A DNA stretch of 32,588 nt, taken from positions 1 through 32,588 of the forward strand of contig BJHS01000020.1 of the NCBI GenBank assembly GCA_014193315.1, in the 5' to 3' direction. The stretch is from Verrucomicrobiota bacterium. GTDB lineage: Bacteria; Verrucomicrobiota; Verrucomicrobiia; Opitutales; UBA953. The notes beneath the pieces are model-generated. The model was not told the DNA's origin. It ran no database searches and saw only the letters and a list, made by a program, of their open reading frames with translations. The translations under genes were made by a program, and so were the position numbers. This document shows, one piece after another, positions 235 to 29,616 of this stretch; position 1 is the first letter of the stretch; every line of letters starts with the position of its first letter.

Positions 235-1539
235 TTACTTCTTCTCGGGCGTCAGCGTCTTGATGGAGAGGGCCCGGAAGCCGACGGCGTCGCCGTGCCC
301 GGCGAAGCCGAAGAAGCCGTGGGTGTTGTCTTTGCCTGGGTGGGCCGACTTGCCCATCACGGTCGCCATGTCGACCTTGCTCAGGTCGGCATCGAGGATG
401 ATGAAGCCGTTCAGCTCGACCTTGATGGTGGAGCCCTTGACGGTCACTTCCTGGAAGTTCCATTCGCCGATGGGACGCTGGTAGCCTCGCTGGGCGGCGA
501 CCATGCCGTACGCCGAGCCATGGACCTGGCGGGGGTCGAGCTTACCGCGGACCTTGTCGTAGTTGTCGTCCAGGATTTGGCATTCGCACATGCCGACATA
601 GGCGGTGTTGCCGGTGCCGGGGAATCGGATGCACAAGCCATTATTGCCGCCGGTGGGAACCTTGAATTCGAGGCGCGCGACGAAGTCGGTCAGGTCATCT
701 TGGTGGTACAGGTTGCCGCCCTTGTTCGGCTTGCAGAAGATCGCGCCGTCGACCACTTCGTACTGGTCGGTCGCGCCCTTCCACTCGGTCAGGTCCTTGC
801 CGTTGAAGATCGGCTTGAAGCCGTCGGCCTGCTTGGCCGCTAGGAGCTGGTTGGCCTCGTTGCCGGGGATCTCGCGGATGAACACGTTGCGCCAGCGGAT
901 CGGCGCGCCGTGGGTTTGCAGGGAGATGGGGCCCTTGGCCGGGACGGCGATCTTGCGGTCATAGTAGTTCTCGAGGATGGCATGGTCGACGGTCTGCTGG
1001 CCGTTCAGCCAGACGCTGACACGGGAGCCGACCATGACGACGCGGAGGGTGTTCCATTCGCCGGGTGGTTTGTCCGCCAGCACGAGGGGGAATTTGCCGG
1101 GGTTGGTCGCGGAGTTGTTCCAGAGGGCGCCACTGCCCTTGTCGGCGCCATTCTTCTTTTCCTTGGGGTTGGCCGGGTCCCAGATTTGGAGCTGCGGCAC
1201 GCCGCGGAGGTAGATGCCGGAGTCGCCCAGCGGCGCCATGTTGTATTCGAGGGTCAGTTCAAAGTCGCCGTACTCCTTGACTGTGGTGGCATATTTGCCC
1301 TTGCCGTCGTTGAGCAGCTCGTCGCCCGCCGCCTTCCAGTGCTGCTGCATGTCGGCCGTCCAGATCGCGTCGCGTTCGGTGCGCTTCTCCGGCGGCATCG
1401 CGAGGTAGGCACGGTGATCGGAAGTGTCGCCGCCGCGCCAGCCGGTGAGGTCGACGCCGTTGTAGAGGGCGGTGAAGCCGGCGGGCGGGGTGGGGGCGGC
1501 CGTCAGGGCGACGGCGGCGAGGAGGGCGAGGAGGCGCAT
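235..1539 (-). CDS. Exported protein with two tandem DUF1080 (3-keto-disaccharide hydrolase) domains
   Basis: This 434-residue protein has a signal peptide (MRLLALLAAVALTAAP). A first DUF1080 domain spans about residues 20-225 (opening GFTALYNGVDLTGW). A second spans about 240-430 (opening GFKPIFNGKDLTEW). Both carry the family's jelly-roll landmarks, namely a GEWN stretch (160-163; 358-361) and an LNG strand (178-180; 376-378). PF06439 members are concanavalin-like lectin/glucanase folds, and some cleave 3-keto-glycosides. The open frame extends upstream to 1725 but runs over the preceding gene, so the ATG at 1539, directly before the signal peptide, is chosen. It lies 20 bases after the single-domain DUF1080 gene and is the last gene before the terminator. 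Substrate is unknown, and one of the two domains could serve only in binding. Confidence 0.9.
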   Translation of the reverse strand: MRLLALLAAVALTAAPTPPAGFTALYNGVDLTGWRGGDTSDHRAYLAMPPEKRTERDAIWTADMQQHWKAAGDELLNDGKGKYATTVKEYGDFELTLEYNMAPLGDSGIYLRGVPQLQIWDPANPKEKKNGADKGSGALWNNSATNPGKFPLVLADKPPGEWNTLRVVMVGSRVSVWLNGQQTVDHAILENYYDRKIAVPAKGPISLQTHGAPIRWRNVFIREIPGNEANQLLAAKQADGFKPIFNGKDLTEWKGATDQYEVVDGAIFCKPNKGGNLYHQDDLTDFVARLEFKVPTGGNNGLCIRFPGTGNTAYVGMCECQILDDNYDKVRGKLDPRQVHGSAYGMVAAQRGYQRPIGEWNFQEVTVKGSTIKVELNGFIILDADLSKVDMATVMGKSAHPGKDNTHGFFGFAGHGDAVGFRALSIKTLTPEKK

Positions 1540-1559
1540 GGTGTAAGGTCGACGGGGGT

Positions 1560-2216
1560 TCAGAGGGGTTCGAGGGTGCAGCGTTTCACCTCGAAGGCAC
1601 CGCCTTCGACCTGGAGGCCGATGAAACCTTCGGACAGGTTGGCGCCGGTGGCTTTGTTCACTTCCTTGCCGTTCACGAGGATGGTGACGGTATCCTTGTC
1701 GCAGACCGTGGTGAAGGTGTTCCATTCGCCGACCGGTTTCTCGGCGCTCTCGCCGGGGCGGCCGATGCGGTACCCGCGGACCTTGCCCGTCTTCTTATCC
1801 GTGAGGGCGGTGCCATCCTTCACGGTTGCGCCGTTCCAGAAGTAGAAGTCGCCTTGGCGGTCGTGCATGCCTTGGCACTCGATGCTCTTGGGCCAGACCG
1901 CGTCCGGCGGGGTCATGTGGACGACGACCCCCGTATTGCCTGGCTTCGTGAAACGCCATTCAACGGTGAACTTGTATTGCTTGTAGGCTTTCTCGGTGCG
2001 GAGGAAGCCGCTCGGTTTGCCGGTGCAGGCGAGCAGGCCGTCCTTGATGGACCAGGTGTCCTTGGCCGAGGCCTCCGGGAACGCGACCCAACCGACGGTG
2101 TCCTTGCCGTTGAAGAGCTCGACCTTGGCGGTCGGCAGGGAGGCTTCGGCGGCAAAGGCGGGGAGCGACGAGGCGAGCAAGGCCAACCAAAGTGACGGGC
2201 GGAGGGAGGGGCGCAT
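1560..2216 (-). CDS. Exported single-domain DUF1080 (3-keto-disaccharide hydrolase family) protein
   Basis: This 218-residue protein has an N-terminal signal peptide of about 22 residues ending at AFA-AEA. One DUF1080 domain covers residues 30-216, starting with VELFNGKDTVGW and containing NTGVVVHM (94-101), a GEWN motif (163-166) and the closing strand GGAFEVKRCTLEPL. The length fits a single-domain member of PF06439. Known relatives act on 3-oxidised glycosides in the periplasm, and that activity is inferred here, not shown. The gene sits between a DUF1501 gene (69-base gap) and a two-domain DUF1080 paralogue (20-base gap), suggesting co-transcription. The start is preceded by CCTATCCCC and no Shine-Dalgarno sequence. 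Confidence 0.9.
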   Translation of the reverse strand: MRPSLRPSLWLALLASSLPAFAAEASLPTAKVELFNGKDTVGWVAFPEASAKDTWSIKDGLLACTGKPSGFLRTEKAYKQYKFTVEWRFTKPGNTGVVVHMTPPDAVWPKSIECQGMHDRQGDFYFWNGATVKDGTALTDKKTGKVRGYRIGRPGESAEKPVGEWNTFTTVCDKDTVTILVNGKEVNKATGANLSEGFIGLQVEGGAFEVKRCTLEPL

Positions 2217-12440: not shown

Positions 12441-15400
12441 TTATTCGGTAAAGTTGAATTCGTTGCTGGCGAAGAGAATCTGCGCGAGCGAAGACCAAGG
12501 GGACTGCGGCGAACTCTTGCGGTTAAAGCCCGCGGAGGCCGCATCGATGATCTCACCAGTGCGCGCGTCCTTGAGCACCGGAGCCCAGGTGAAGCTGTCG
12601 CTGTTCGGGCCGTTCAAGTCATCGAGGATAAAGTCCACCGTGTCGCTCGGGGAGATGACGGCTTTCTCGAGGACGACGGGTACGGAAGCCCCGCCGAGGC
12701 AGGTCCATTCACCGAGCAAGCCGCGTTGGGCGGAGACAATGCGGGCACGGACGCCCTGGCTTTGGGGAGTGGGCACCTTGAGGTCACCATCGATGCGGAA
12801 TTCACCGCCGCCGCCCGCGGACCAGCGCCGGATGACTGCGTGCTGCGCATCGTTACCAGGATGGCCGCCTTTCGCAGTCAACGCAGCATGCCCATTCCCG
12901 CTGGTCGCGTCGGGATACTTGTCCGTCGGGTTCAAGCCATCTTTCTTGAACACTTTCATCTCGGTGAAGGTGACTTTCTTGGTTTTGGGGTCGTAGCCGC
13001 CGATGCCACTCAACCAGTTGGCGGGGGCGGGGGCTTGGCGGACTTCGGTGACGTAGGCCAAGGCTTGCTTAATCTCCGCGGACTTTGGGTCGCGGGCGAG
13101 GATGGCACGGTAGAGCTCGCGCACTTTCTCTTCATCGGTGGCCGCTGGGGCGATTTTCTCCGCGAGTTTATCCGCCTGCTGACGAGCGAAGGGATGGTTC
13201 ATCATCCAGAGCGCTTGCTGGGGCGTCGTGGTTTCATTACGTCGGGCGACGTGGTAGTCCGGGTTCGCAAAGTCGAACGTGCGGAAGACGGCTGGGAGGT
13301 TCTGGCGGTCAATCAAGGCGTAGATGGTCCGCCGGGGCGTGCTGAAATTGGCAACGAGGTCAAAGGGCTGGCCACCGAGCTTGGGCTCGAGCTGACCGGT
13401 GATGGCGAGGATGCTGTCACGCATGGTCTCGAAATCCGCCCGGCGACGATGCATGCGCCAGAGCAGGCGGTTCTCAGGGTCCTTGTCCAGGCCAGCCTTA
13501 TGGGTTTCCGACGCTTGGCGGAAAGCCGCCGAGGTCACGAGGGTTCGAATAAGTTTCTTGGTCGACCATTGGTCGGCGATGAAGCGCGTTGCCAGTCCGT
13601 CAAGGAGTGCAGGGTTAGTGGGCGCCGCCGTGCGGACGCCGAAGTCGCTGGGGGTCTCGACGAGAGGTTGGCCGAAAATCTGATCCCACACGCGGTTCAC
13701 CATCACACGAGCCGTCAGTGGATTGTTGGCATTGGCGATGGCTTCGGCGAGCTCGAGGCGCCCGCTGCCCCGCTTGAAGTCCCCGGGCTTGCCGTCGGGG
13801 GCAAGGATTTCGAGGTAATGCCGCGTGACGTTCTTGCCGGGGCGGCCTGGATTACCGCGTAGGAAAACGTTGCCGTTCACGGGTTGGGCTTTGTCAACGA
13901 CGGCCATGGCCCGCGGTGGGCTCTTGGGGCTGGCTTTGAAGGCTTCAACTTCACGGATGAGGCTACGATGTTTTTGGGCGTCGGCGACGACGTACGAGCC
14001 CACAAGGCTATCGGCAGTCGGGGTGGTGGGGCCGTTCGCTGCTTCGATGAGTGCTCGCCACGGTTTGAACTCGAGGGTGGGGTTACCGCGGGCGGTCGCG
14101 AGGAGTTCGCCGTAGGCAGCGACGAGTTCGTCGAACTTCGTCGGCATCTTTTTGGTCAGGGCGGCTTGCAGGGTGGGGTCAATCGGTGTGGCTGACTTCG
14201 CGAGAAGTTCGGCCGAAAGTTTGGCCTTGAAGGCGTCGTCAGGGGTGCCTACGAGACGGGCCCAGAGTCCGAACTGCGGGTCGGTCGTAACGAGGCGAGG
14301 CTTCAAGGTTATCTTCCACCCCGCAAGGATCGCGGGGTAGAGGGCGAGGCGTTTCGCTTCCTGGGCGTCATCAAACTTCGCGTCGGCCAGTGAGCGACGG
14401 AGAACGCCGAGGTAAGCCGTTGTCTTGACGGACGAGAAGGAGCCTTCGCGCCGGCTGGTCCGGAAATCCACGACCTTGGCTTCCTTGGCGGCGAGCTCTT
14501 TTTCAAATTCCACCGAGTCCTTCGTCGGCGTGAAGGGCTTCAGTAACGGCTTATCTTTGGGCTCCTCGCTCGAGTTAAAGATGGCGTAAAGAGCGTAGTA
14601 ATCCGTCGCAGGCAAGGGGTCGGATTTATGGTCGTGGCACCGTGCACAGGCCATGGTGAGGCCTTGCGTGCCGCGCATGACGACGTCGATGCGGTCATCG
14701 ATGATGTCCTGTTGGTTATTAAGGAAGCGTCGGCCGAGGGTCAGGAAGCCCAAGGCCGCCAAGTCGCGGGTGTCTTCGCCAGTCACGAGCGCGTCCGCCG
14801 CGAGCTGCAGCTTGAGGAACTGGTCATACGGCATATCCTGATTGAAAGCCCCGACGACCCAATCACGGTAAGTGTAGGCGTAGGCGTAACGACGTTCCTC
14901 TTCGAAGACATAACCCTTGGTGTCGGCGTAACGCGCAACGTCGAGCCAGTGCCGGCCCCAGCGTTCGCCGAAGGCTGGGGCGGCGAGGAGTCGGTCGACG
15001 AGTTTATCGTATGCTTGCGGGTCGCGATCCGCGACGAAGCGCTCGACCTCGGCGGCGGAGGGCGGCAGGCCGTGCAACACAAAGTACGCGCGACGAATCA
15101 GCGTTTCCTTCGGGGCATCGGGCGAATAGGACAGGCCGTTCGCTTCTAGTTTAGAAAGGACGAAGCGATCGACGTCATTACGGATGCGCTCGGTGGCCGT
15201 GACTTTGGGGAGCGCTGGGGCGGCAATAGGCTGGAAGGCCCAGTGCTTACGTGGGTCGGAGATCTCGGGCTGACCAGACGTCGGCCAAGGGAGCCCTTGG
15301 CGAACCCATTCGGTGAGCGCGGCGATTTCCTTGGGCACGAGTTTCTTCTCGTCGCTCGGCATCGCTTCGACGTCCTTTCGCTTCGTGTGGTTAATAGCGA

Positions 15401-15662
15401 GAATGAGGCGACTCTGCTCGGGTTGGCCAAGGACAACGACGGGACCGACTTCCCCGCCTTTGAGAATGTAAGCCCGGGAGTCTAGGCGCAGGCTCGACTT
15501 CTGCTTCTTAGGTCCATGGCACTCGTAGCAGTTTTCGACCAAGATTGGGCGGACCTCCTTTTCGAAAAACTCAAGTTGGGCGGCCGTTGGGACAGGGTCA
15601 GCCCCAGCCAGACGCCCAGTCAGGGCGAGGCCTGCTAGAAGTAGGAGGGCAGGGGCTTTCAT
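12441..15662 (-). CDS. PSCyt1-DUF1549-DUF1553 protein (second complete copy)
   Basis: This 1073-residue exported protein has a signal peptide (1-21). PSCyt1 carries C45-Y-E-C48-H49 followed by GPKKQKSSLRLDSR. A DUF1549 region (about 165-345) contains LPPSAAEVERFV and GRHWLDVARYADTKGY. A second heme-type motif is C339-A-R-C342-H343 in CARCHDHKSDP. DUF1553 (about 635-835) contains NNPLTARVMVNRVWDQIFG. A C-terminal region (about 885-1073) is rich in beta-strand-like sequence and is not present in the same form in the 1022-residue paralogue. It heads a minus-strand cluster with DUF1501, esterase and serine hydrolase genes. A sigma-70-like promoter may lie at 15681-15707. Electron-transfer function is inferred only from the heme motifs. 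Confidence 0.93.
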   Translation of the reverse strand: MKAPALLLLAGLALTGRLAGADPVPTAAQLEFFEKEVRPILVENCYECHGPKKQKSSLRLDSRAYILKGGEVGPVVVLGQPEQSRLILAINHTKRKDVEAMPSDEKKLVPKEIAALTEWVRQGLPWPTSGQPEISDPRKHWAFQPIAAPALPKVTATERIRNDVDRFVLSKLEANGLSYSPDAPKETLIRRAYFVLHGLPPSAAEVERFVADRDPQAYDKLVDRLLAAPAFGERWGRHWLDVARYADTKGYVFEEERRYAYAYTYRDWVVGAFNQDMPYDQFLKLQLAADALVTGEDTRDLAALGFLTLGRRFLNNQQDIIDDRIDVVMRGTQGLTMACARCHDHKSDPLPATDYYALYAIFNSSEEPKDKPLLKPFTPTKDSVEFEKELAAKEAKVVDFRTSRREGSFSSVKTTAYLGVLRRSLADAKFDDAQEAKRLALYPAILAGWKITLKPRLVTTDPQFGLWARLVGTPDDAFKAKLSAELLAKSATPIDPTLQAALTKKMPTKFDELVAAYGELLATARGNPTLEFKPWRALIEAANGPTTPTADSLVGSYVVADAQKHRSLIREVEAFKASPKSPPRAMAVVDKAQPVNGNVFLRGNPGRPGKNVTRHYLEILAPDGKPGDFKRGSGRLELAEAIANANNPLTARVMVNRVWDQIFGQPLVETPSDFGVRTAAPTNPALLDGLATRFIADQWSTKKLIRTLVTSAAFRQASETHKAGLDKDPENRLLWRMHRRRADFETMRDSILAITGQLEPKLGGQPFDLVANFSTPRRTIYALIDRQNLPAVFRTFDFANPDYHVARRNETTTPQQALWMMNHPFARQQADKLAEKIAPAATDEEKVRELYRAILARDPKSAEIKQALAYVTEVRQAPAPANWLSGIGGYDPKTKKVTFTEMKVFKKDGLNPTDKYPDATSGNGHAALTAKGGHPGNDAQHAVIRRWSAGGGGEFRIDGDLKVPTPQSQGVRARIVSAQRGLLGEWTCLGGASVPVVLEKAVISPSDTVDFILDDLNGPNSDSFTWAPVLKDARTGEIIDAASAGFNRKSSPQSPWSSLAQILFASNEFNFTE

Positions 15663-15680: not shown

Positions 15681-15707
15681 ACCCTATGATTGTTCCTCCA
15701 ATGTCAA
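15681..15707 (-). promoter_or_regulatory. Possible promoter for the 15662-9020 cluster
   Basis: On the minus strand a perfect TTGACA (15707-15702) is followed after 15 bases by TAGGGT (15686-15681), a weak -10 match with a short spacer. The surrounding 60 bases (15661-15720) are only 21/60 G+C by hand count, far below the genes on either side. The predicted transcript would have a leader of only about 12-16 bases. The -35 match is good and the -10 doubtful. Confidence 0.35.
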
Positions 15708-15841: not shown

Positions 15842-18800
15842 ATGACTAATATCCTCCGTCCCTGGACCCGCGTCGCTGTCGTAGCCGCTTGTCTCCTCGC
15901 TTCGCTCGGCGCACAAGCGGCCGCCGACATCGTCTTCTTGGCGGGTGGCCGGTCGCATGGCCCTGGTGAGCACGAGTTCAAGGCGGGCTCCGAACTCTTG
16001 GCCAAGGCCATTAATGAGCAGAGCGGCTTAGGTCTCAAGGCCGTGGTCGTCAGCGGCTGGCCTAAGGATGAAACGATTCTGGACGGCATCAAGTGCCTCG
16101 TCATCTATGCCGACGGCACGAGCGTCGTCGGCAAGGGCTGGGCCAAGGTCGATGAGCTCGCCAAGAAGGGTACGGGCATCGTGTTCATGCATTATGCCGT
16201 CCACCCCGATGCCAAGGATGGCGAAAAATACTACCGTCCCTGGATCGGCGGCGCATTTGAAACGGGCTGGTCCGTCAACCCGCATTGGGTCGCCGACCTC
16301 AAGGCTTTGCCGAATCATCCGGTAGCGCGCGGCGTGAATGGCCTCGTGCAGGCTTACGATGAGTTTTATTACAACATGCGTTTCCCGGCGGAGCGCAGCA
16401 AGGTGCTCGACCTCGTTACGGCCGTGCCAACCCGTGAGAACGTGAAGAAGTATATCAATCTTTGGAATGAGCACGGCGTCGACGGCCTCGGTAAAGTCCA
16501 GACGTTGATGTGGGGTATCGAACGCGCCGATGGCGGCCGCGGCGTTGGTTTCTCCGGTGGTCATAACCATCGCAATTGGGCCATCGACGGCTTCCGGACC
16601 TTGGCCCTCAACGCTATCGTTTGGGCTGCGAAGGTCGAAGTGCCTGCCACGGGGGTGAAGTCCACTCCAGTTACCGAAGATGAGCTCAACGCCAACCTGG
16701 ATGATAAGGGCAAGAACGCACCTCGCCTCAAGCTTCCGCAGCCGGGCGAATTTGCCAAGATTCCCGCCGCCGCCATTCAGGTCGAACGCGAAGCCAAATT
16801 CGGCCCTCCCGCCGCTAGTGCTCCTGCACCCGCCGCCCCGGCCGCTCCCAAAGCCGCGACGCCTGCCGCCACGCCGACCGCAGGGAAGCCAGCGGCTCAG
16901 ACCAAGGACATTACTGCCAAGGATAAGGTTCGCCTAACCGAACTGACCGCTGACCTCAAGGGTGCGAAGGAACTTTACCTGCTGGTTTCCGACCTCGGTG
17001 ATAGCAACTGCGACTGGGTCTCCTGGATCGAGCCCACGTTGCTCATGGCCGACGGGACGACGAAGAACCTCATCGATCTGAAGTGGAAATCCGCCACCGC
17101 CAGCCACGGCGCGGTGCTCGTGGGCAAGAATAATTCCAAGGGTCCGCTTTCCGTCGCCGGTAAGGTCTACACCAACGGTATTGGCACCCACGCCACCTCG
17201 GTCATCGCCTACGATCTCCCAGCGGGCGTGGTCGGCTTCCGTACGCAAGTCGCCATCGACGACGGTGGTTTAGAGCGCGGCGGTAAGCGCAGCCCCGCTG
17301 CGGTTCGCTTCATGGTGTTTACCCAGAAGCCCGACGAAGCGAAGGCCGTCGCGGTGGAAGATGGTCCAATGCTCGTCCCGCCAGAACTCTTCACCGTACC
17401 GGAAGGTTTTGAAGTCACGGTCTGGGCGACTTCGCCGATGCTCTTTAACCCGACGAACATCGACTTCGACGAGAAGGGTCGGATGTTTGTCGCCGAGGGC
17501 GTGAACTACCGCGGTAAGGGTGGTCGCCGCAAGGAAGGCGACCGCATCGTCATCCTCGAGGACACCTCGGGCGCTGGCAAGGCGGACAAAGCGACGGTCT
17601 TCGTCCAGGACACGAACCTGGCCTCGCCGCTGGGCGTCGCCGCCATCGACGGCAAAGTCGTGGTCTCCCAGCCGCCGGACTTAATTGTTTACACCGACGT
17701 CAATCGCGACGGGGTCTTCGACCCGGCCGTCGATAAGCGCGAGGTCCTCCTGACCGGCTTCAATGGCCGCCAGCACGACCACTCCCTTCACAGCGTGACC
17801 GTCGGTCCGGACGGGAAGTGGAACTTCAATCAAGGCAACACCGGCGCGGACTTCATCGACAAGGCCGGCCGCCACTTCTACATGGGGAGCCCTTACATGC
17901 TCGGCGGCATCGCCGGGAAGCGTAGCGACGACGGCAATGTCTGGATCGGCGGATTCTCGGTCCGCATGAACGCCGATGGCTCTGACCTCCGCATCGTTGG
18001 TCACAACTACCGTAATAGCTACGAGCAGGCCATCAATTCGCTTGGGGACCTCTACCAGAGCGACAATGATGACCCGCCCGCCTGTCGTGTCTCCTTGATC
18101 ATGGAAGGCGGCAATGCCGGCTTCGCCTCCCTCGATGGTAAGCGCTCCTGGGGAGCCGATAAGCGTCCCGGGCAGTCCACCCCGGTGGCGGAATGGCGGC
18201 AGGAAGACCCGACCACCATGCCCGCCGGCGATGTCTATGGCGGCGGTTCCCCGACCGGCGTAGCCTTCTACGAGAACGGCGCGCTCGGCGAGAAGTGGAA
18301 CGGCCTGCTCCTGGCCTGCGAAGCCGGCAAGAACGTCATCTTCGGCTATCAGCCCAAGCCCGATGGCGCCGGCATGAAGCTCGAGCGTTTTGATTTCATC
18401 ACCTCCAACAAGGAGAAGGAGTGGGCGGGGTCCGACTTCCTGGGCGGCCGCGCGACGGGCGTCCTGAAGACGATGTTCCGTCCGGCCGACGTCACCGTGG
18501 GCCCGGATGGCGCGATTTACTTCGCCGATTGGTTCGACCCCGGCGTGGGCGGTCACGGCACGCGCGATAATCGCTACTCCGGCACCATCTACCGCGTCGC
18601 CCCGAAGGGTTTCAAGTCGGTGGTCCCGAAGATCGACCTCGGCGTGCCGGAAGGCCAGTTGCTTGCCTTGCGTAGCCCCGCCTCGAATGTCCGCGGCGCC
18701 GGGTTTGCCCGCCTCAAGGCCCAGGGAGATAAGGTTGCCGACGACGTCGCCTCCCTGCTGGGTGATGCGAATCCCTACGTCGCCGCGCGCGCCGTGTGGT

Positions 18801-19933
18801 TGCTGGCGCAACTCGGCGATAAGGGCGTCGCCCTCGCCCGGAAGGAGCTCGCCTCGGCCGACGCCACGCGGCGACTGGTCGCCTTCCGTGCCCTGCGCGC
18901 CGCCGGCCGCGACGTGTTTGCCCTTTGCCAGTCCGCGGCCACCGACGCTTCCCCCGCGATTCGTCGCGAAGTCGCGCTCGCGCTCCGTGACTTCAAGACC
19001 CCGGCCGCCGTCGCCACCTTGGTGACCGTCGCGAAAGGTTTCGACGGACTGGATCGCGCTTACCTGGCGGCGATCGGCCTGGGGGCCATCGACCGCGAGG
19101 CCGAGGTCTACGCGGCCCTCGCCAAGGAGATGGGGGCCGCGCCCGCCGCTTGGTCGCCCGCCTTTGCCGCGCTGACCTGGCGCCTCCACCCGCCGCAGTC
19201 CGTCGCCGGCGTCCGGGAGCGCTTGTTCTCCGGGAAGCTATCGGCCGACGAATCCAAGGTCGCCTTGACCGGGTTGGCCTTCACGAAGAGCGCCGCCGCC
19301 GCCGCGACCATGGTCGAACTCGCGCTCGACAAGAGCTTCGTCCACCGCGAATTGGCCAACTGGTGGTTGCAAAGCCGCAAGGGCAACGACTGGAAGGAAT
19401 TCGACGTGGAGAAAGTCATGAAGCTGCGCGGTCTCTATGACCCCGCCAAGGCCGTCGTCACCGCGGTGGATCTCCTTCCGGAAGCCGCCGATGCCAAGCC
19501 CCTCTCCGCCGTCGAGCAGATCGCCGCCTTGAAGGGCGACGCGGCCCGGGGCAAGGTCACCGCCGCCGTCTGCCTCGGTTGCCACCGGCTCGGCGACCAA
19601 GGCGTGGACTATGGCCCCAACCTCACCACCTACGCCAAGCAGCAGTCGGTCGAGACCGTCGTGCTGGGCATCGCCCGCCCCTCCGCCGAGATCTCGCACG
19701 GCTTCGAAGGCGTGCGCCTGACCACCACGGACGGCATCGTCGTGCATGGCATCGTGCTAAGCGACGCCGACCCCGTCATGCTCAAGTGCCTGGGGGGCGT
19801 CGTCCAGACCATCCCGAAGGCCAAGGTCAAGTCGCTCACCCCGCTCCCGCGCTCCTTGATGCTCTACCCCTCGCAGATGGGTCTCACCGATCAGTCGGTG
19901 GCGGACCTCGTGGCCTACCTGCGTAGCCTCTAA
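15842..19933 (+). CDS. ThuA–NPCBM–membrane-bound-dehydrogenase propeller–HEAT–heme-binding CxxCH fusion protein
   Basis: This 1363-residue exported protein has several domains in order. They are a signal peptide (about 1-27); a ThuA-like glutamine-amidotransferase fold (about 28-290, starting IVFLAGGRSHGPGEHEF); a Pro/Ala-rich linker (about 319-358); and an NPCBM-type carbohydrate-binding domain (about 360-496, with GIGTHATSVIAYDL). A PVC-type membrane-bound-dehydrogenase beta-propeller (about 512-930, with GFEVTVWATSPMLFNPTNIDFDEKGRMFVAEG) follows, then Ala-rich HEAT-like repeats (about 940-1190). A C-terminal cytochrome domain has C1244-L-G-C-H1248. ThuA proteins are linked to trehalose and keto-disaccharide use. 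The propeller would be the catalytic dehydrogenase part, passing electrons to the heme. The frame is open from 15686, but the ATG at 15842 immediately precedes the signal peptide. Confidence 0.92.
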   Translation: MTNILRPWTRVAVVAACLLASLGAQAAADIVFLAGGRSHGPGEHEFKAGSELLAKAINEQSGLGLKAVVVSGWPKDETILDGIKCLVIYADGTSVVGKGWAKVDELAKKGTGIVFMHYAVHPDAKDGEKYYRPWIGGAFETGWSVNPHWVADLKALPNHPVARGVNGLVQAYDEFYYNMRFPAERSKVLDLVTAVPTRENVKKYINLWNEHGVDGLGKVQTLMWGIERADGGRGVGFSGGHNHRNWAIDGFRTLALNAIVWAAKVEVPATGVKSTPVTEDELNANLDDKGKNAPRLKLPQPGEFAKIPAAAIQVEREAKFGPPAASAPAPAAPAAPKAATPAATPTAGKPAAQTKDITAKDKVRLTELTADLKGAKELYLLVSDLGDSNCDWVSWIEPTLLMADGTTKNLIDLKWKSATASHGAVLVGKNNSKGPLSVAGKVYTNGIGTHATSVIAYDLPAGVVGFRTQVAIDDGGLERGGKRSPAAVRFMVFTQKPDEAKAVAVEDGPMLVPPELFTVPEGFEVTVWATSPMLFNPTNIDFDEKGRMFVAEGVNYRGKGGRRKEGDRIVILEDTSGAGKADKATVFVQDTNLASPLGVAAIDGKVVVSQPPDLIVYTDVNRDGVFDPAVDKREVLLTGFNGRQHDHSLHSVTVGPDGKWNFNQGNTGADFIDKAGRHFYMGSPYMLGGIAGKRSDDGNVWIGGFSVRMNADGSDLRIVGHNYRNSYEQAINSLGDLYQSDNDDPPACRVSLIMEGGNAGFASLDGKRSWGADKRPGQSTPVAEWRQEDPTTMPAGDVYGGGSPTGVAFYENGALGEKWNGLLLACEAGKNVIFGYQPKPDGAGMKLERFDFITSNKEKEWAGSDFLGGRATGVLKTMFRPADVTVGPDGAIYFADWFDPGVGGHGTRDNRYSGTIYRVAPKGFKSVVPKIDLGVPEGQLLALRSPASNVRGAGFARLKAQGDKVADDVASLLGDANPYVAARAVWLLAQLGDKGVALARKELASADATRRLVAFRALRAAGRDVFALCQSAATDASPAIRREVALALRDFKTPAAVATLVTVAKGFDGLDRAYLAAIGLGAIDREAEVYAALAKEMGAAPAAWSPAFAALTWRLHPPQSVAGVRERLFSGKLSADESKVALTGLAFTKSAAAAATMVELALDKSFVHRELANWWLQSRKGNDWKEFDVEKVMKLRGLYDPAKAVVTAVDLLPEAADAKPLSAVEQIAALKGDAARGKVTAAVCLGCHRLGDQGVDYGPNLTTYAKQQSVETVVLGIARPSAEISHGFEGVRLTTTDGIVVHGIVLSDADPVMLKCLGGVVQTIPKAKVKSLTPLPRSLMLYPSQMGLTDQSVADLVAYLRSL

Positions 19934-20022: not shown

Positions 20023-20817
20023 ATGGTTCGCCTGCTGTTTCTCGGACTTTGCCTCCTCCCGTCCCTCGGTTTCGCCCAGGAGCCGGTGATCTCTCGCTAC
20101 CGCGAGGCGGAGCTTGGCAATGCCGAGGCGCAGGTTGAGGTTGGTCATTACTATGTCATCCAATACGCCAGGAACCGTATCCGCCGCAACCTGACCGAGG
20201 CGCTCGACTGGTACGGCCGCGCGGCGAAGCAGCGCAATACCCTGGGGATGATGCGACTGGCCGAACTCCACCTCCGGCCCGAACCCGAGGTCCACAGCCC
20301 CGCCGATGCATTCGACTGGTATGATCGACTCTATGAGTCCAATCGTCCAGAGACGGGCTGCAACGCGGCCCTGGCTCGGTTCTACGCCGAGGGTGTCCCG
20401 GCGCGCGACGGCAAGCCCGCGTCCCCGCCCGACCTGCGCCGTGCTTATTACCATGCCCTCCTGCATGCTTCGACGGGAATCATGCCGCCCGACTTGACCG
20501 AAATAAAGAGCCGGGCGCGGGGGAAGCTGACGGCCGCGGAGGTCAAGGATGTCGAGGATCGCGCCTTCCGCTGGGTGGAGGATCACAATAAGCCCGGCTT
20601 CAAGCTGGAAGTCGAACTAGCCGCTGGCGAGGGCCCGGACAAGGCCGGTAAGAAGAATAAGGACGGGAAAGCCACCACGACCGATGAACCGATCGATACC
20701 TCCGACAAGGCGCTCGATCTGGCTATCAAGAATCAGCAAGAAAGCGCGAAGCAAGTGGCACCCCTCGGCAAGCAAAAGCGCTACCTGTTACCGTCCGCCG
20801 ATCGCGAGAAGAAGTAG
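20023..20817 (+). CDS. Exported Sel1-like (TPR-type) repeat protein
   Basis: This 264-residue protein has a signal peptide of about 18 residues (LLFLGLCLLPSLGFAQ). Its two or three alpha-helical Sel1-like repeats lie at about residues 27-150, for example AELGNAEAQVEVGHYYV, ALDWYGRAAKQRNTLGMMRLAEL and AFDWYDRLYES. The C-terminal about 60 residues are charged and low in hydrophobics (Lys/Asp-rich, DKAGKKNKDGK) and probably disordered. Such repeats mediate protein-protein contacts, and a specific partner cannot be named. It lies between two large exported dehydrogenase-like genes, with gaps of 89 and 47 bases. A TATAAA at 19945-19950 could be a -10 box but no convincing -35 accompanies it. Other small Sel1 proteins of unrelated function look similar. 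Confidence 0.8.
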   Translation: MVRLLFLGLCLLPSLGFAQEPVISRYREAELGNAEAQVEVGHYYVIQYARNRIRRNLTEALDWYGRAAKQRNTLGMMRLAELHLRPEPEVHSPADAFDWYDRLYESNRPETGCNAALARFYAEGVPARDGKPASPPDLRRAYYHALLHASTGIMPPDLTEIKSRARGKLTAAEVKDVEDRAFRWVEDHNKPGFKLEVELAAGEGPDKAGKKNKDGKATTTDEPIDTSDKALDLAIKNQQESAKQVAPLGKQKRYLLPSADREKK

Positions 20818-20864
20818 CCGACTCTGGGTTTGCCTCGGGAGGGCAGGGTGCTTTGCTCCGGAGT

Positions 20865-23174
20865 ATGCGTCCCGGCCTCGTCGCCTTGCTTAGTACCGTG
20901 GTACTGGCCTTCGGTCAGGCCAAGAAGCCGACCGGGGTCGGCAAGGAGCCCACGGAGGCTCCGGGGCGCTGGATCTTCGCCACCGTCGGCGTCGACCGTA
21001 AGCCCGAGGGGACCGCCGAGCACACGGCGCTCAAGGGGCTCGCCCTCCGCCTCGGCGAAGACGGCAAGCACGCCCTCGCCTACGACACCGAGCTCGCCCG
21101 GGTCGTTGGGGGCTGGTCGGGCAAGTTCGTGAGCGAGATGAACCTGATGTCGCGCGGTGAGTACCCGTCGGCGTTGGGGCGCGTTTATTTCTCCACCGAC
21201 GATGACCTCGCCGGTCTCGCGGTCGGCGAGCAGGCCCCTCGACTCGAGCGGCGCAAGGGTTTCGGCCCGCTCGCCCCGACGCAGCTGCGCTTGGCTAATT
21301 TCCAACCCAAGGACGAACCGGCCGCCACCTTCGCCGTCCAGGGCTCCTATCGTATGGTCGGTTTCCAGCCGCAGGGCGACGGCGTGCTCACCTTCGGCGT
21401 CCCCGGCGCGGCTGATCGCGTCATCGAGACCCCTCGCGTCGTTGATTCCAACGAGGCCCAGGTGCTCGTCCGCGCCCTCGTGACCGAGACGGCGACCGGC
21501 GTCACCGTTCTGCTTGGACGGACGGCCGATGCCGGACGCATCGGCGTGCGCGGTCCCGGTCGACGTGACCAGCTCGACGGGTGGGAAGTTTACCGTGTGC
21601 CGGCCGGCAAGCAGCAGGTGGAGATCGCCTATGCCCCCGTCGGCGCCGCTCGCCCCGAAGGCTGGCCCGAGGCGGGGGCACCCGCCGCTCCCGGCCGACG
21701 CTGGCCGCAGACGGTCGAGACCACGGGCGAACTCTCGACCAAGGTCGGCGAGCCTTACGTGGTCGACCGGGTCAAACTCCCCGAGAGCAACCCATGGAAG
21801 ACCCCGATGTTCACCTCGGCCTTGGATTTCCTGCCCGATGGGCGCGTCGTGGTGGCCACCTTTCATGGCGACGTCTTCATCGCCTCGGGGATCGATGCGC
21901 CGTTGCAGAAGGTGACGTGGTGTCGTTTTGCCGCGGGCCTCTATCACCCGCTGGGCCTGAAGGTTGTCGGCGGGGAGATTTTCGTCACCTGCCGCGATGG
22001 CCTGTGGAAGCTGCGCGACACCGATGGCGACGGGGAGTGCGACCGCTACGAGGTCTTTAACGCCGACGTCCAGATCACTAGGAATTTCCACGAGTTCGTC
22101 TTCGACCTGCAGACCGACGCCGCCGGGAATTTCTACTTCATCAAGGCCGGCCCCGTCCGCAAGGGTGGGCGGGGCTTTGACGAGATCTGCGAACACCATG
22201 GCGCTCTCTGCAAGGTTTCCGCCGACGGTCGTACGTTTTCCGTCGTCGCCACAGGTTTCCGCGCCCCGAATGGACTGGGGATCAGCCCGACGGGCCAGCT
22301 CACGACCGGCGACAACGAAGGTACATGGACGCCGGTCTGCCGGTTGAATTGGATCAAGGAGGGTGGGTTTTACGGCGTTCCGCCGCTCGCCCATCGTGCG
22401 AACGAGCCGACCGACTACGATCGCCCGCTTTGCTGGTTCCCCAAGGACGTCGATAACTCCAGCGGGGGGCAGGTTTGGGTGACCTCGGACAAGTTCGGGC
22501 CGTGGAAGGATCGCTTGCTGCACCTCAGTTACGGCACCTGCTCGCTCTTCGGCGTCCTTCCCCAGGAGGTCTCGTTCCGTGGCCAGCCACAGATGCAGGG
22601 CGGCGTGAGCCGATTCAACGTCAACTTCGACAGCGGGGCCATGCGTGCCCGCTTCAACCCCCAAGACGGCCAGCTCTATGTCGTCGGTCTCCGCGGCTGG
22701 CAGACTACGGCGACGCGCAATGGCTGCCTCCAGCGCGTGCGCTACACCGGGGCGGCTTACCGCGCGCCCCTGCAGCTGGCCGTGCATCCTGGGCAGGTGG
22801 TGCTGACCTTCGGTGCTCCGGTCGACCGCGCGACCGCGGAGGATCCCGCCAGCTGGAACGCGGAACTTTGGAATTACGTCTGGTCCGCCGCCTACGGTTC
22901 ACCCGAGGTGTCGACCATCGTCCCGGCCCGCGCCGCCGCCGAACTCGGTAAGGACGGTAAGCCCGAGTTCTCGAAAGACCAGATGGCCGAGCGCAAGCAC
23001 GACCCCTTGGCGATCCGCTCCGTCAAGGTCTCCGCCGACGGCTTGACGGTCACCCTAGAGACCCCCGAGCTTCGCCCCGCCATGCAGATGCTGCTCAAGT
23101 ACGAGCTTAAGTCAGCCGACGGGCAGGAGCTGCGTGGGCAGGTCATCAATACCATCCACGCGCTCGCCCAATAG
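20865..23174 (+). CDS. Exported DUF6797-like / beta-propeller dehydrogenase-like protein without a heme motif
   Basis: This 769-residue protein has a signal peptide (about 1-18, ending FGQA). Its N-terminal part (about 25-290, with KGLALRLGEDGKHALAYDTELARVVGGWSG split over two strands) resembles DUF6797. A propeller domain follows (about 300-625, with FTSALDFLPDGRVVVATFHG), containing a calcium-binding-type loop DTDGDGECD near residues 385-393 and FRAPNGLGISPTGQLTTGDNEG. The C-terminal 120 residues look like an Ig-type domain. Relatives often carry a C-terminal CxxCH cytochrome; none is found here, so electrons would have to pass to another protein such as the neighbouring cytochrome fusion. 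A TTG at 20853 is in frame, but the ATG at 20865 is preferred because it directly precedes the signal peptide. Substrate unknown. Confidence 0.82.
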   Translation: MRPGLVALLSTVVLAFGQAKKPTGVGKEPTEAPGRWIFATVGVDRKPEGTAEHTALKGLALRLGEDGKHALAYDTELARVVGGWSGKFVSEMNLMSRGEYPSALGRVYFSTDDDLAGLAVGEQAPRLERRKGFGPLAPTQLRLANFQPKDEPAATFAVQGSYRMVGFQPQGDGVLTFGVPGAADRVIETPRVVDSNEAQVLVRALVTETATGVTVLLGRTADAGRIGVRGPGRRDQLDGWEVYRVPAGKQQVEIAYAPVGAARPEGWPEAGAPAAPGRRWPQTVETTGELSTKVGEPYVVDRVKLPESNPWKTPMFTSALDFLPDGRVVVATFHGDVFIASGIDAPLQKVTWCRFAAGLYHPLGLKVVGGEIFVTCRDGLWKLRDTDGDGECDRYEVFNADVQITRNFHEFVFDLQTDAAGNFYFIKAGPVRKGGRGFDEICEHHGALCKVSADGRTFSVVATGFRAPNGLGISPTGQLTTGDNEGTWTPVCRLNWIKEGGFYGVPPLAHRANEPTDYDRPLCWFPKDVDNSSGGQVWVTSDKFGPWKDRLLHLSYGTCSLFGVLPQEVSFRGQPQMQGGVSRFNVNFDSGAMRARFNPQDGQLYVVGLRGWQTTATRNGCLQRVRYTGAAYRAPLQLAVHPGQVVLTFGAPVDRATAEDPASWNAELWNYVWSAAYGSPEVSTIVPARAAAELGKDGKPEFSKDQMAERKHDPLAIRSVKVSADGLTVTLETPELRPAMQMLLKYELKSADGQELRGQVINTIHALAQ

Positions 23175-27167: not shown

Positions 27168-28946
27168 ATGCCGATCATCACCGAGAAGGAACTGCGCCCC
27201 GAGTACGACGTGATCGTCGTCGGCTCCGGTGCCGGCGGTGGCCAGTCCGCCTACACGCTGACCATGAACGGCGTGAAAGTCCTCATGCTGGAAGCCGGCC
27301 GTAACTACGACCCCGCGACCGAGACCGCGATGTTCCAGACCGCCAGCCAGATGCCGCTCCGCGGGATGTCCACCCGCGAGAAACCCTTCGGGTTCGCCGA
27401 CGCCACGGTGGATGGTGGTTGGGAAGTCCCCAACGAGCCTTACACGCAGGCCAACGATAAGCCCGCGGATAAGTTCTGGTGGTGGCGTGCCCGGATGCTC
27501 GGGGGTCGCACGAACCACTGGGGTCGTATTTCGCTGCGCAATGGCGCCTACGACTTCAAGCCGTACTCCCGCGACGGCCTCGGCTTCGACTGGCCCATCG
27601 CTTACGAGGATGTCGCCCCTTACTACGACAAGGTCGAGATGTTGGTCGGTGTCTACGGCTCGAACGAAGGTCTCGAGAACACGCCGGACTCCCCCAACGG
27701 GACGCTACTGCCTCCGCCCAAGGCGCGTGCTGGCGAGCTCTACTTTAAGAAGCATGTCGCCAAACTTGGCATTCCCGTCGTCCCGATTCACCGTGCGGTC
27801 CTGAGCACCCGCCAGGATCATGAGAATTTCCCGCGGCGGATCTTCCCGCACAACCCGACCGCGCAGAAGCTGACGGCCGACTCCATGAAGGCCCGCGCCG
27901 CGTGCTTTTGGGCTACGGACTGCGGTCGCGGCTGCAGCATCCGGGCGAACTACCAGTCGACGACGGTGCACCTGCCGCCGGCCTTGGCCTCCGGTAATCT
28001 CGACATCCTTTGCGACGCGCATGCCCGCGAGGTTATCCTGAATGACCAAGGGAAGGCGGCCGGCATCCTCTACATTGACAAGCGTACTGGTCAGGAGCGC
28101 CTCGTGAAGGCCCGGGCGGTCATCCTGGCCGCCAGCTCAGGCGAGACCGCCCGCATCCTGCTCAACTCCCGTTCGAAACGCCCCGAGGGCGTCGCCAACT
28201 CGAGCGGGCTTGTCGGAAAATACATCATGGACACCGTCGGGGCTGGCCTCGGCGGCCGCGTGCCGGCCTTCGAGAACCTACCGGTGCATAACGAGGACGG
28301 CGCCGGTGCCCACGTCTACGTGCCGTGGTGGCTCTACCAGCAACAGCACGCTGGCAAGCTCGACTTTGCCCGCGGCTACCACATCGAGTTTGCGACCGGT
28401 CGCCTCGCCCCGAACCTTAGTGTCGCCGGTCCCGCCGGTCCCGGTTACGGCAAGGCATTCAAGGAGGAGCTCCGTCGCACCTATGGCTCGTTCGTCGGTT
28501 TCTCCGGCCGAGGGGAGATGATCCCGAACAAGGATTCCTTCTGCGAACTCGACCCCGTGGTGAAGGATAAGTGGGGCATTCCCGTGCTACGCTTCCACTG
28601 GAAGTGGTCCAGCCACGAGCTCAACCAGGCGGCGCACATGCAGCGTACCTTCAAGGAGATGATCGAGGCCGCGGGCGGCACCCCGGGTGTCCCGACGACC
28701 GGCGAAAAAGCCATCAAACCCGGCGGATTCATCATCCATGAGGTGGGAGGCGGCATCATGGGCGCCGACCGGGCCAAGGCCGTGACCAACTCCTGGAACC
28801 AGTGCTGGGATATCCCCAACCTCCTGCTGAACGATGGCTCCGCCTTCGCCAGCAACGCCGACAAGAACCCGACCCTGACAATCATGGCCTTGGCGTGGCG
28901 CGCGTGCGACCACCTCATCGACGAGATGCGCAAGGGCAACCTCTGA
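27168..28946 (+). CDS. GMC-family FAD oxidoreductase (glucoside 3-dehydrogenase/gluconate-dehydrogenase-like catalytic subunit)
   Basis: This 592-residue protein has an N-terminal FAD-binding motif YDVIVVGSGAGGGQSA (13-28), a GRTNHWGRISLR segment typical of the GMC group, and C-terminal GMC_oxred_C landmarks. The probable catalytic His524 lies in IIHEVGGGIMGAD, and the protein closes with NADKNPTLTIMALAWRACDHL. It lacks a signal peptide, while the next gene encodes a small subunit-3 protein with a Tat-like leader. The pair is therefore likely exported together by hitchhiking, as is known for related periplasmic sugar dehydrogenases. The closest known roles are oxidation of glucosides at C3, or of gluconate or sorbitol, with a cytochrome acceptor. 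Which one applies cannot be read from sequence alone. The gap to the partner gene is 10 bases. Confidence 0.92.
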   Translation: MPIITEKELRPEYDVIVVGSGAGGGQSAYTLTMNGVKVLMLEAGRNYDPATETAMFQTASQMPLRGMSTREKPFGFADATVDGGWEVPNEPYTQANDKPADKFWWWRARMLGGRTNHWGRISLRNGAYDFKPYSRDGLGFDWPIAYEDVAPYYDKVEMLVGVYGSNEGLENTPDSPNGTLLPPPKARAGELYFKKHVAKLGIPVVPIHRAVLSTRQDHENFPRRIFPHNPTAQKLTADSMKARAACFWATDCGRGCSIRANYQSTTVHLPPALASGNLDILCDAHAREVILNDQGKAAGILYIDKRTGQERLVKARAVILAASSGETARILLNSRSKRPEGVANSSGLVGKYIMDTVGAGLGGRVPAFENLPVHNEDGAGAHVYVPWWLYQQQHAGKLDFARGYHIEFATGRLAPNLSVAGPAGPGYGKAFKEELRRTYGSFVGFSGRGEMIPNKDSFCELDPVVKDKWGIPVLRFHWKWSSHELNQAAHMQRTFKEMIEAAGGTPGVPTTGEKAIKPGGFIIHEVGGGIMGADRAKAVTNSWNQCWDIPNLLLNDGSAFASNADKNPTLTIMALAWRACDHLIDEMRKGNL

Positions 28947-28956
28947 GCCTCCGACC

Positions 28957-29616
28957 ATGTCCCTCGAGCCTTCTTCCCCGCCGACCCGTCTGGATCGCCG
29001 TCAGGCCCTTGGCTGGCTGGCCGTCGCCGCCGTTGGCCTCACCGTGGCCGGTCGTCTGCCGCTGGGCGCGGCGGAGCCCGCCGACCGTCCGCACGGCAAG
29101 CGCATCGGCGCCGACCCGGTGTTGAACAAGACCTATGCCCCCGGCGAGCTTTGGCCGCTCTCCTTCACGCCCGCCCAGCAGGCCGCGGCGGCGGCCTTGG
29201 CCGACCTGATCATCCCGCCGGAGGCCGGCGGTAAGAAACCGTCCGAGCTCGGCGTGCCCGCGTTCATCGACGAGTGGATCAGTTCCTACTACGACGAGAC
29301 CCTCAAGGATCGGCCGATCATCCTGACGGGCCTGACCTGGCTCGATGCGGAGGCTAATCGCCGTCACGGCGCCACCTTCGCGACCTTGACCGAGGCCCAG
29401 CAGGCCGGTCTCGCTGACGACATCTGTGGCGCGAAACCCGTAAAGACGGAGCACAAGCCGGGGCAGGAGTTCTTCAAGCGCTTCCGCCACCTGACGGCGG
29501 GCGGTTACTACACGACGCCCCAGGGTATGCGGGAGCTCGGTTACGTGGGCAACACGCCGTCCGCGAACTTCGACGGCCCGACCCTGGAGGCGCTCAAGCA
29601 CCTCGGGCTCGCCTGA
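28957..29616 (+). CDS. Gluconate 2-dehydrogenase subunit 3 family protein (Tat-type leader)
   Basis: This 219-residue protein has an N-terminal twin-arginine-like sequence LDRRQALGWLAVAAVGLTV (12-30). The mature domain fits Gluconate_2-dh3 (PF13618), with ALADLIIPPEAGGKKPSELGVPAFIDEW split over two helices and FFKRFRHLTAGGYYTTPQGMRELGY near the C-terminus. Small subunits of this type help maturation and Tat export of the GMC catalytic subunit encoded immediately upstream. The heme subunit that usually completes the complex is not encoded in this operon. The PSCyt or CxxCH proteins elsewhere in the window are candidates by inference only. The stop codon sits in a palindrome shared with the converging EamA gene. 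Confidence 0.9.
   Translation: MSLEPSSPPTRLDRRQALGWLAVAAVGLTVAGRLPLGAAEPADRPHGKRIGADPVLNKTYAPGELWPLSFTPAQQAAAAALADLIIPPEAGGKKPSELGVPAFIDEWISSYYDETLKDRPIILTGLTWLDAEANRRHGATFATLTEAQQAGLADDICGAKPVKTEHKPGQEFFKRFRHLTAGGYYTTPQGMRELGYVGNTPSANFDGPTLEALKHLGLA

Follow-up and report, generated by a model that had tools for sequence, protein, structure and literature searches.

Which reaction does a ThuA domain carry out when it is joined, in one exported polypeptide, to a carbohydrate-binding domain, a beta-propeller with the fold of pyrroloquinoline quinone (PQQ) sugar dehydrogenases and a c-type heme domain? This question is raised by a gene at positions 15842 to 19933 of the forward (+) strand in a 32,588-nucleotide stretch of DNA, here called the window, which is an entire contig (C20, BJHS01000020.1) of a Verrucomicrobiota bacterium (GCA_014193315.1; genome of 2.36 Mb, 97% complete). 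Few reactions have been assigned within the large families of ThuA proteins and PVC-type heme propellers. An earlier note, made from the sequence of the window, had proposed that this fusion could serve as a functional link for ThuA proteins. The link is real: the architecture recurs, the presence of ThuA has changed repeatedly on the propeller tree, the ThuA domain is under purifying selection, and DUF1080, the 3-keto-disaccharide hydrolase family, is found in the same partner slot. It is better founded on this exchange between ThuA and DUF1080 than on the one gene, and the exchange turns a vague family name into a definite question, namely whether ThuA acts on 3-keto-glycosides made by the propeller.

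Domain organization of the fusion protein

The gene and its parts, all on the + strand, are the following.

15842..19933, +, whole gene: exported ThuA-NPCBM-propeller-HEAT-cytochrome c protein, 1363 residues plus stop, with full-length relatives in G017, G009 and BS10
15842..15922, +, signal-peptide-like start, residues 1-27, judged by eye from the sequence
15920..16711, +, ThuA domain, residues 27-290, with H117, H159, D173, E174, Y176, R233 and H241 (Pfam, fold matches, residue comparison)
16712..16876, +, Ala/Pro-rich linker, residues 291-345, with low model confidence around its middle
16877..17341, +, NPCBM/CBM51-like carbohydrate-binding domain, residues 346-500 (Pfam)
17384..18610, +, beta-propeller of the PQQ sugar dehydrogenase fold, residues 515-923, with H645-D646-H647, R724-N725 and R880 (NCBIfam, model, fold matches, alignment)
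18617..19411, +, HEAT repeats, residues 926-1190 (Pfam, model)
19523..19930, +, TIGR02603 c-type heme domain, residues 1228-1363, related to Kustd1711 (NCBIfam, PDB sequence match)
19571..19585, +, CLGCH heme motif, residues 1244-1248, the sole CxxCH in the protein
19859..19861, +, Met1340, aligned with the distal heme ligand M292 of Kustd1711 and invariant in a 42-row alignment

The stop-free reading frame ends at 19933 on the + strand and offers two ATG starts, at 15686 and 15842, of which the upstream one would put 52 more residues before the signal-peptide-like stretch. The single five-domain polypeptide of 1363 residues described by the earlier note was borne out, since every domain scored above the curated cut-off of its family. 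In Pfam these were ThuA (PF06283, residues 77-262, 44.1 bits against a cut-off of 33.4), NPCBM (PF08305, residues 409-496, 72.1 against 23.9, in two stretches), DUF7133 (PF23500, residues 517-899, 162.7 against 27), HEAT_2 (residues 1001-1065, 31.6 against 27.7) and Cytochrom_C (residues 1235-1269, 28.0 against 21.3). In NCBIfam, TIGR02604 (residues 522-923, 458.2 against 122.2) and TIGR02603 (residues 1232-1362, 127.6 against 68.15) both exceeded their cut-offs in the same chain, which defines a PVC-type heme-binding CxxCH protein. Failure to find ThuA or the cytochrome had been named as an outcome that would speak against the fusion, and both were detected. Structure prediction (residues 505-1363, 42 sequences; predicted local distance difference test, pLDDT, 88.8; predicted template modelling score, pTM, 0.89) and fold comparison agreed with the propeller and the HEAT repeats.

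ThuA and DUF1080 in the same partner slot

Fusions were counted in six genomes: that of the window, G019, G037, G054, Haloferula sp. BvORR071 (G057) and Chthoniobacter flavus Ellin428 (G058). These were picked because they hold members of the family, and the comparison covered ThuA and DUF1080 matches in open frames of at least 700 residues together with the TIGR02604 matches seen sharing such frames; the fusion counts are lower bounds. ThuA shares a frame with the propeller in at least 23 proteins (19 ThuA-propeller, 3 ThuA-propeller-ThuA and 1 ThuA-DUF1080-propeller) and DUF1080 does so in at least 13 (9 DUF1080-propeller, 1 with two DUF1080 domains ahead of the propeller, 2 propeller-DUF1080 and the triple). 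Counted as stretches above cut-off, at least 26 of 77 for ThuA (3/13, 2/10, 3/11, 5/12, 7/13 and 6/18 in the order of genomes given above) and at least 14 of 163 for DUF1080 (4/22, 4/21, 2/25, 1/33, 2/30 and 1/32) lie in these fusions.

Pfam searches on five of the fusion proteins confirmed the domain order, including that of the triple from Haloferula sp. BvORR071 (L178:923-6163), in which ThuA (78-301), 3keto-disac_hyd (366-549), DUF7133 (569-949) and Cytochrom_C (1617-1656) occur with a laminin-G-like domain in one chain. The genome of the window itself holds a second ThuA fusion (G000:C5:2556-7745, L166), a 1730-residue frame of the form ThuA-propeller-cytochrome-ThuA whose N-terminal ThuA copy lacks the equivalents of E174, Y176 and H241 and looks degenerate. 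An exception to the pattern is one protein of this genome in which a GDSL lipase domain is a further partner. Also in this genome, DUF1080 is found within 2 kb of 3 of the 13 ThuA stretches, where the random mean is 0.62 and such a count was reached in 96 of 5000 placements that ignored contig borders. Because the same propeller proteins are also fused to DUF1080, keto-sugar processing is the best guess for the role of ThuA.

Recurrence of the fusion

The loci of the 80 best of at least 573 relatives were kept, and the architecture shares are therefore not unbiased; architectures were assigned with hidden Markov models built from the family. ThuA stands in frame in 23 of the 80: the complete ThuA-NPCBM-propeller-HEAT-cytochrome order was found in 20 (in L051 with its end in a second frame) and the same make-up, cut or frame-broken, in 3. 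The others are NPCBM-propeller-HEAT-cytochrome (26, with ThuA in an overlapping frame in L128), propeller-HEAT-cytochrome (30, with NPCBM in a neighbouring frame in L123) and propeller-HEAT only (1). ThuA as a separate neighbour of the ThuA-less forms was considered and, within the stretches examined at the 80 loci, was seen only in L128, overlapping in another frame; L055 has a very weak second ThuA-like match in another open reading frame.

The survey of fusion and adjacency suggested by the earlier note thus reveals a recurrent architecture. The uniqueness that its wording implied did not hold, being ruled out by the 23 ThuA-bearing relatives and by the counts from the six genomes. These fusion proteins are a widespread, little studied group in Verrucomicrobiota. 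One relative, L053, comes from a metagenome-assembled genome labelled Planctomycetota, and its fusion groups inside Verrucomicrobiota, which may reflect transfer or a mislabelled bin.

On the propeller tree of 80 rows, the presence of ThuA (with L128 scored as ThuA-bearing) requires a minimum of 10 changes, of which starred branches force 6; the trees are of the 'quick' type, supported by the Shimodaira-Hasegawa-like approximate likelihood ratio test (SH-aLRT) only, and the long branch of L097 may be misplaced. In the ThuA tree (48 rows) the domain of the window falls within a group of 16 fused domains, which a starred set (99) unites with three sequences labelled stand-alone; one of these, L034, is a fragment at the end of a contig, directly beside a propeller gene. 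Four proteins of Prosthecobacter/Verrucomicrobiaceae carry a different ThuA, their ThuA-NPCBM part being 41-43% identical to that of the window, and in the two of them that were aligned the propeller-HEAT-cytochrome part is still 64-65% identical. Different ThuA types appear to have been joined repeatedly to one propeller lineage, and a single accident is hard to credit.

The ThuA domain: enzyme, binding module or passenger

The model of residues 24-505 (25 sequences) reached a pLDDT of 87.5 and a pTM of 0.63, and because of the latter the placement of ThuA relative to NPCBM is not trusted. The best fold matches of the ThuA part were 4e5v (Z 18.1 over 222 residues at 3.1 A), 4jqs (18.0) and 1t0b (16.7). 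Each of H159, D173, E174, R233 and H241 is retained by 27-28 of 28 fused and by 25-29 of 30 stand-alone ThuA domains, and the ratio of nonsynonymous to synonymous substitution rates (dN/dS) of 0.02-0.11 over six pairs indicates strong purifying selection. Catalysis by the ThuA domain appears likely; a firmer wording is precluded by the existence of ThuA-like glycan-binding folds without known catalysis.

Such folds, described in excerpts for the levan-binding domain of SGBP-lev (PMC7618045) and for the carbohydrate-binding module (CBM) of Agd3 (PMC7229062), would make the ThuA domain a carbohydrate-binding module and no enzyme. Both are among the structural matches, and ThuA is dispensable at the locus (see below); their scores (8aa2, Z 12.3; 6nwz, Z 12.4) are, however, clearly below those of the ThuA-like structures, the protein already contains an NPCBM domain, and Agd3, as far as the excerpted text goes, lacks the conserved surface residues of ThuA-like proteins (PMC7229062), whereas the domain of the window keeps the stand-alone set. 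We regard a purely binding role as improbable.

Shuffling without coupled function has also to be weighed: exported Verrucomicrobia proteins would then accumulate modules with no need for a common substrate. The changes of ThuA state on the propeller tree, the GDSL lipase partner and the mosaic alleles described below are in keeping with it, but recurrence was seen for a narrow set of partners, ThuA and DUF1080, which occur together once (no other family was looked for), and strong constraint acts on the ThuA domain. We are very doubtful of shuffling without coupled function.

A proposed mechanism

The reading preferred here, to which we give a probability of roughly 0.4, is that of an exported, probably periplasmic, single-chain glycoside-processing enzyme in which the propeller makes a keto-sugar, the heme takes the electrons and ThuA works on the keto-sugar. 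The NPCBM domain would hold a sugar chain while the propeller would activate a sugar unit, most likely by oxidation; electrons would exit via the c-type heme domain, whose ligand set is that of a high-potential cytochrome, and the HEAT repeats would space or dock the parts. The ThuA domain would then cleave or rearrange the keto-sugar, in place of the DUF1080 of the sister proteins. The keto-sugar chemistry, the electron path, the reaction of ThuA and the shared substrate are what we infer in this scheme, which builds on the observed domains, fold, conserved residues, recurrence, partner exchange and purifying selection.

The heme end of the scheme draws on the match to Kustd1711 (E 2.7e-20 in a PDB sequence search). 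The CXXCH residues C1244-H1248 and the distal M1340, whose Kustd1711 counterpart M292 is Cys or His in mutant chains, give the His/Met ligand pattern of c-type cytochromes, and PF01578, the cytochrome c assembly family, is matched twice above cut-off in the genome of the window. For Kustd1711 the excerpted source gives potentials near +350 mV that are tuned by Ca (PMC11791136). In the NPCBM domain (16877-17341) the order of the two profile halves seems to be opposite to that of 5 of the 5 solved CBM51-type chains shown, where the later half comes first (for example 2vmh, profile 378-465 at chain 8-97 and then 319-366 at 99-145; second stretches in the solved chains are weak singly, with independent E-values of 0.16 to 4). 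A circular permutation of the NPCBM halves is likely from this comparison.

The best fold matches of the propeller are PQQ sugar dehydrogenases, namely 3a9g (Z 31.4 over 306 residues at 2.8 A) and 2ism (29.6), followed by AA12 6i1q (29.0), CcPDH 6jt5 (28.1), 2g8s (27.9) and the soluble glucose dehydrogenase (sGDH) 1qbi (25.5); NHL propellers score about 23. His647 is in register with His147 of Escherichia coli YliI and invariant in the 42-row alignment of close relatives, while Arg724-Asn725 and Arg880 are in register with R214-N215 and R341 of YliI. In sGDH numbering we take H144 to be the catalytic His and R228, N229, R406 and R408 to be the PQQ ligands; sGDH Gln76 had no clear counterpart in the propeller alignment. 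The residue mapping relies on MAFFT and motifs, as hhalign of the propeller against GSDH aligned the last blade alone. No PQQ propeller was matched by sequence among the first 60 of 176 PDB matches. Among 13 more distant fused propellers, His stands in the same register in 3 (2 others, C4_DUF and Chth_C12, were cut out in part and have no His aligned there), and Asn725 is kept in all 11 that could be aligned at that place.

Evidence against the mechanism and the PQQ question

A number of observations weigh against the proposed mechanism. HHIP, a relative of the propeller fold regarded as a non-enzyme, reaches Z 24.6, within the range of the sGDH entries (23.8-25.5), and the fold alone therefore does not show activity. 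By sequence alignment only, the place of YliI R343 and sGDH Arg408 is Ala or Ser, which leaves the PQQ ligand set incomplete; in 8 of the 13 more distant propellers the His lies one place earlier, and of the same 13 R724 is kept in 3 and R880 in 6. Neither PqqC nor PqqE was found in any of 36 genomes of the genus, that of the window included (completeness 62-99%), and across 288 genomes of the phylum PqqC exceeded its cut-off in 6, which belong to a single family. In the genome of the window, 2 of 13 ThuA stretches lie near TIGR02604, both of them fusions and not above chance (979 of 5000 placements, with 28 TIGR02604 places merged from 36 stretches), and for DUF1080 the figure is 4 of 22, all fusions and weak (264 of 5000).

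ThuA itself is found in 5 of the 13 sister loci that were fetched and examined, a sample of those existing, and is missing from 8, at the same locus, where the orthologue is an NPCBM-propeller-HEAT-cytochrome protein of about 1050 residues. ThuA was therefore gained or lost in place, and the rest of the protein works without it. The proposal of the earlier note that ThuA action and heme-coupled sugar oxidation happen on one substrate is not borne out by this distribution. A further adverse point is Lac161_ORF7 (AGW45552), a related protein with TIGR02604, HEAT_2 and Cytochrom_C encoded on DNA assigned to Chthoniobacter, which, according to the excerpted paper, hydrolyses lactose and is a beta-galactosidase (PMC5342196).

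The activity described there would favour a propeller that is not a redox enzyme and itself cleaves glycosides, with heme and ThuA serving other steps. The protein made in E. coli BL21(DE3) is described in the excerpt with a Km of 1.8 mM and a kcat of 13.2 per s for lactose, and the words 'PQQ' and 'cofactor' occur nowhere in the text (PMC5342196). It is, however, a single paper in which, in the excerpted part, a glucose oxidase kit served to measure glucose release, contamination by traces of E. coli beta-galactosidase is possible and no glycosidase residues are named (PMC5342196); the retained heme domain would also go unexplained. A glycosidase propeller seems to us rather unlikely.

A true PQQ quinoprotein dehydrogenase that uses scavenged PQQ, with ThuA handling the product, would fit the top-scoring solved folds, which are PQQ enzymes, and the conservation, within the close family, of the Arg-Asn pair and of the His at the catalytic place. 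E. coli is regarded as taking up PQQ from its surroundings for YliI. Since PqqC and PqqE were not found in the genus, any quinoprotein reading needs outside PQQ or another mechanism, and their absence is odd beside the 36 TIGR02604 stretches of the genome of the window. The PqqC search was able to detect its target, as the 6 positive genomes of the phylum indicate (0 of 14 control genomes had a match), whereas PqqE gave nothing above cut-off in any genome searched, so that its negative is weaker. Against scavenging stand also the lost Arg408 equivalent, the Arg ligands not generally kept in the sister fusions, and the GSDH profile PF07995, which was not matched up to E 0.1. We consider this alternative unlikely.

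Returning to the keto-sugar mechanism, the two words 'dehydrogenase propeller' of the earlier note fared differently: the propeller stood, and the dehydrogenase is a family name whose PQQ ligands are partly kept. Heme-coupled sugar oxidation likewise retains the PQQ dehydrogenase fold and the His at the catalytic place, and loses ground through the partial ligands, the PqqC and PqqE searches and the reported beta-galactosidase. The case for sugar oxidation by the propeller, which its fold suggests, is weaker than was assumed. In a bolder form, which we think unlikely, ThuA and DUF1080 would be interchangeable keto-sugar enzymes on a PQQ-fold propeller that no longer needs PQQ, and one chain, coupled to a high-potential heme, would both oxidise and cleave glycosides; if true, this would be a route of glycan breakdown parallel to the glycoside hydrolases.

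The absent PQQ synthesis genes raise the question of what the numerous propellers use instead. As a separate observation, PqqC is rare throughout the phylum despite the large numbers of TIGR02604 propellers in the six genomes counted.

Integrity of the reading frame and a probable recombinant tail

An assembly join or frameshift inside the gene was suspected from a break in identity. Over ThuA, NPCBM and propeller, identity is 89-100% among the window and its five ThuA-bearing sisters, but the HEAT part of the window is 66-73% identical to the sisters, which are 93-97% alike, and its cytochrome part 59-60% against 96% between sisters (figures from G017 and G009, the sole sisters with a whole cytochrome part; the cytochrome end of G021, L044, lies in a second frame and was left unjoined). 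In 300-base bins, DNA identity falls inside the gene between the bin with its start at 18.4 kb and the next one, at 18.7 kb, and third-position GC is 0.73 in ThuA and climbs to 0.92 in the cytochrome.

As to the internal join or frameshift that the earlier note had listed as a refuting check, the gene of the window does show a sharp change of relatedness near 18.6-18.7 kb, but BS10, a separate record on a 232-kb contig, speaks against a join made by this assembly. Its N-terminal part has the same make-up and is followed by the tail allele of the window (dN 0.062 in HEAT and 0.048 in the cytochrome), and for this reason natural recombination is preferred to an assembly join. The better reading of the HEAT-cytochrome tail (window 18600-19933) is that two alleles exist in the clade as a recombination mosaic, as the sequence comparison suggests. 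The complete architecture is intact with the other tail allele in G017 and G009, and occurs beyond the genus in L032/L088, L053, L054 and L090 (Pfam was run on L053, L088 and L090). The nearest named relatives among the matches listed are BS8, BS10 and UppL6_bin-0046, two of which are labelled Opitutae.

Neighbouring genes

Around the fusion gene the window contains the following features.

12441..15662, -, divergent PSCyt1-PSCyt2-PSD1 protein, which heads the minus-strand gene row
20023..20817, +, Sel1-repeat-like protein (26.1 bits, below the Pfam cut-off of 30.7), seen beside the ThuA-bearing form only in the loci examined
20853..23174, +, second, divergent propeller protein (TIGR02604 36.3 bits, E 4e-9, below cut-off), after the Sel1 gene where that is present
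235..2216, -, two 3-keto-disaccharide hydrolase (PF06439) genes, 259-1479 with two such domains and 1584-2123 with one
27168..29616, +, GMC oxidoreductase and gluconate 2-dehydrogenase subunit 3, as context

The minus-strand row comprises DUF1501, BD-FAE esterase, beta-lactamase-like, flavin adenine dinucleotide (FAD) oxidoreductase, PSCyt, DUF1501 and DUF1080 genes. The GMC oxidoreductase with gluconate 2-dehydrogenase subunit 3 has what we take to be the make-up of a LacABC-type sugar 3-dehydrogenase; its presence in the window, with that of the DUF1080 genes, is in keeping with the keto-sugar reading. The divergent PSCyt gene lies on one side in 13 of 13 sister loci and the second propeller gene downstream in all 11 that reach that far, L047 and L048 being too short; in L044 a Sel1 gene and about 3 kb separate it from the fusion gene. 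The beta-lactamase-like gene (window 9020-10042) accompanies 5 of 5 ThuA-bearing loci and 0 of the 7 ThuA-less loci covering the place. The Sel1-like gene was found in 3 of 3 covering ThuA-bearing loci and, at E 1e-6, in 0 of 8 ThuA-less loci, its three matches being only 34-35% identical to that of the window, so that a more distant Sel1 could be missed.

Comparison with known systems

No publication on ThuA-propeller fusions was found in a literature search whose coverage left out most subscription journals and preprints; no title of relevance to ThuA combined with 3-keto or with Verrucomicrobia cytochromes was among those listed, and the model name TIGR02604 occurred in a single paper of the literature searched. 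The protein of the window shares with the PQQ sugar dehydrogenases (sGDH, YliI/Asd, AA12) the fold, the catalytic-place His and the Arg-Asn pair, and differs from them by the loss of part of the PQQ ligands, by the additional ThuA and HEAT parts and by a genus in which no PQQ synthesis genes were found. CcPDH also joins a propeller, a heme domain and a CBM, its heme being b-type and that of the window c-type. With the diheme cytochrome c Kustd1711 (7zs0) the heme domain family, the CXXCH and the distal Met are shared, whereas Kustd1711 has two heme domains and no other modules.

The rhizobial ThuA/ThuB trehalose pathway, which involves 3-keto-sugar chemistry, shares the ThuA family name with the fused domain, and there ThuA is cytoplasmic and stand-alone, with a separate dehydrogenase. 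The excerpted source presents ThuAB as the catabolic route (PMC3518184). Lac161_ORF7, likened here by its reported families, has the same propeller, HEAT and heme families and DNA assigned to Verrucomicrobia, and in the excerpted text no ThuA or NPCBM is reported for it, unlike the protein of the window (PMC5342196). PSCyt proteins of freshwater Verrucomicrobia with CBMs including NPCBM, for which a role with sugars is suggested in the excerpt (PMC5615132), come from the same phylum and, with the PSD proteins, combine cytochromes with CBMs as here, where PSCyt genes lie next door; they have other cytochrome and partner families, and 'ThuA' occurs 0 times in the text (PMC5615132).

DUF1080, abundant in Planctomycetes and linked to xanthan in the excerpted source (PMC5673643), has been proposed, on a genetic link given in excerpt, to explain lactose use together with LacABC via 3'-ketolactose (PMC9007349). 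That pathway, as far as the excerpt describes it, has periplasmic sugar oxidation followed by a keto-sugar enzyme, and its DUF1080 is the alternative partner in the sister fusions; LacABC and DUF1080 are separate proteins, whereas the protein of the window is one chain with propeller and heme.

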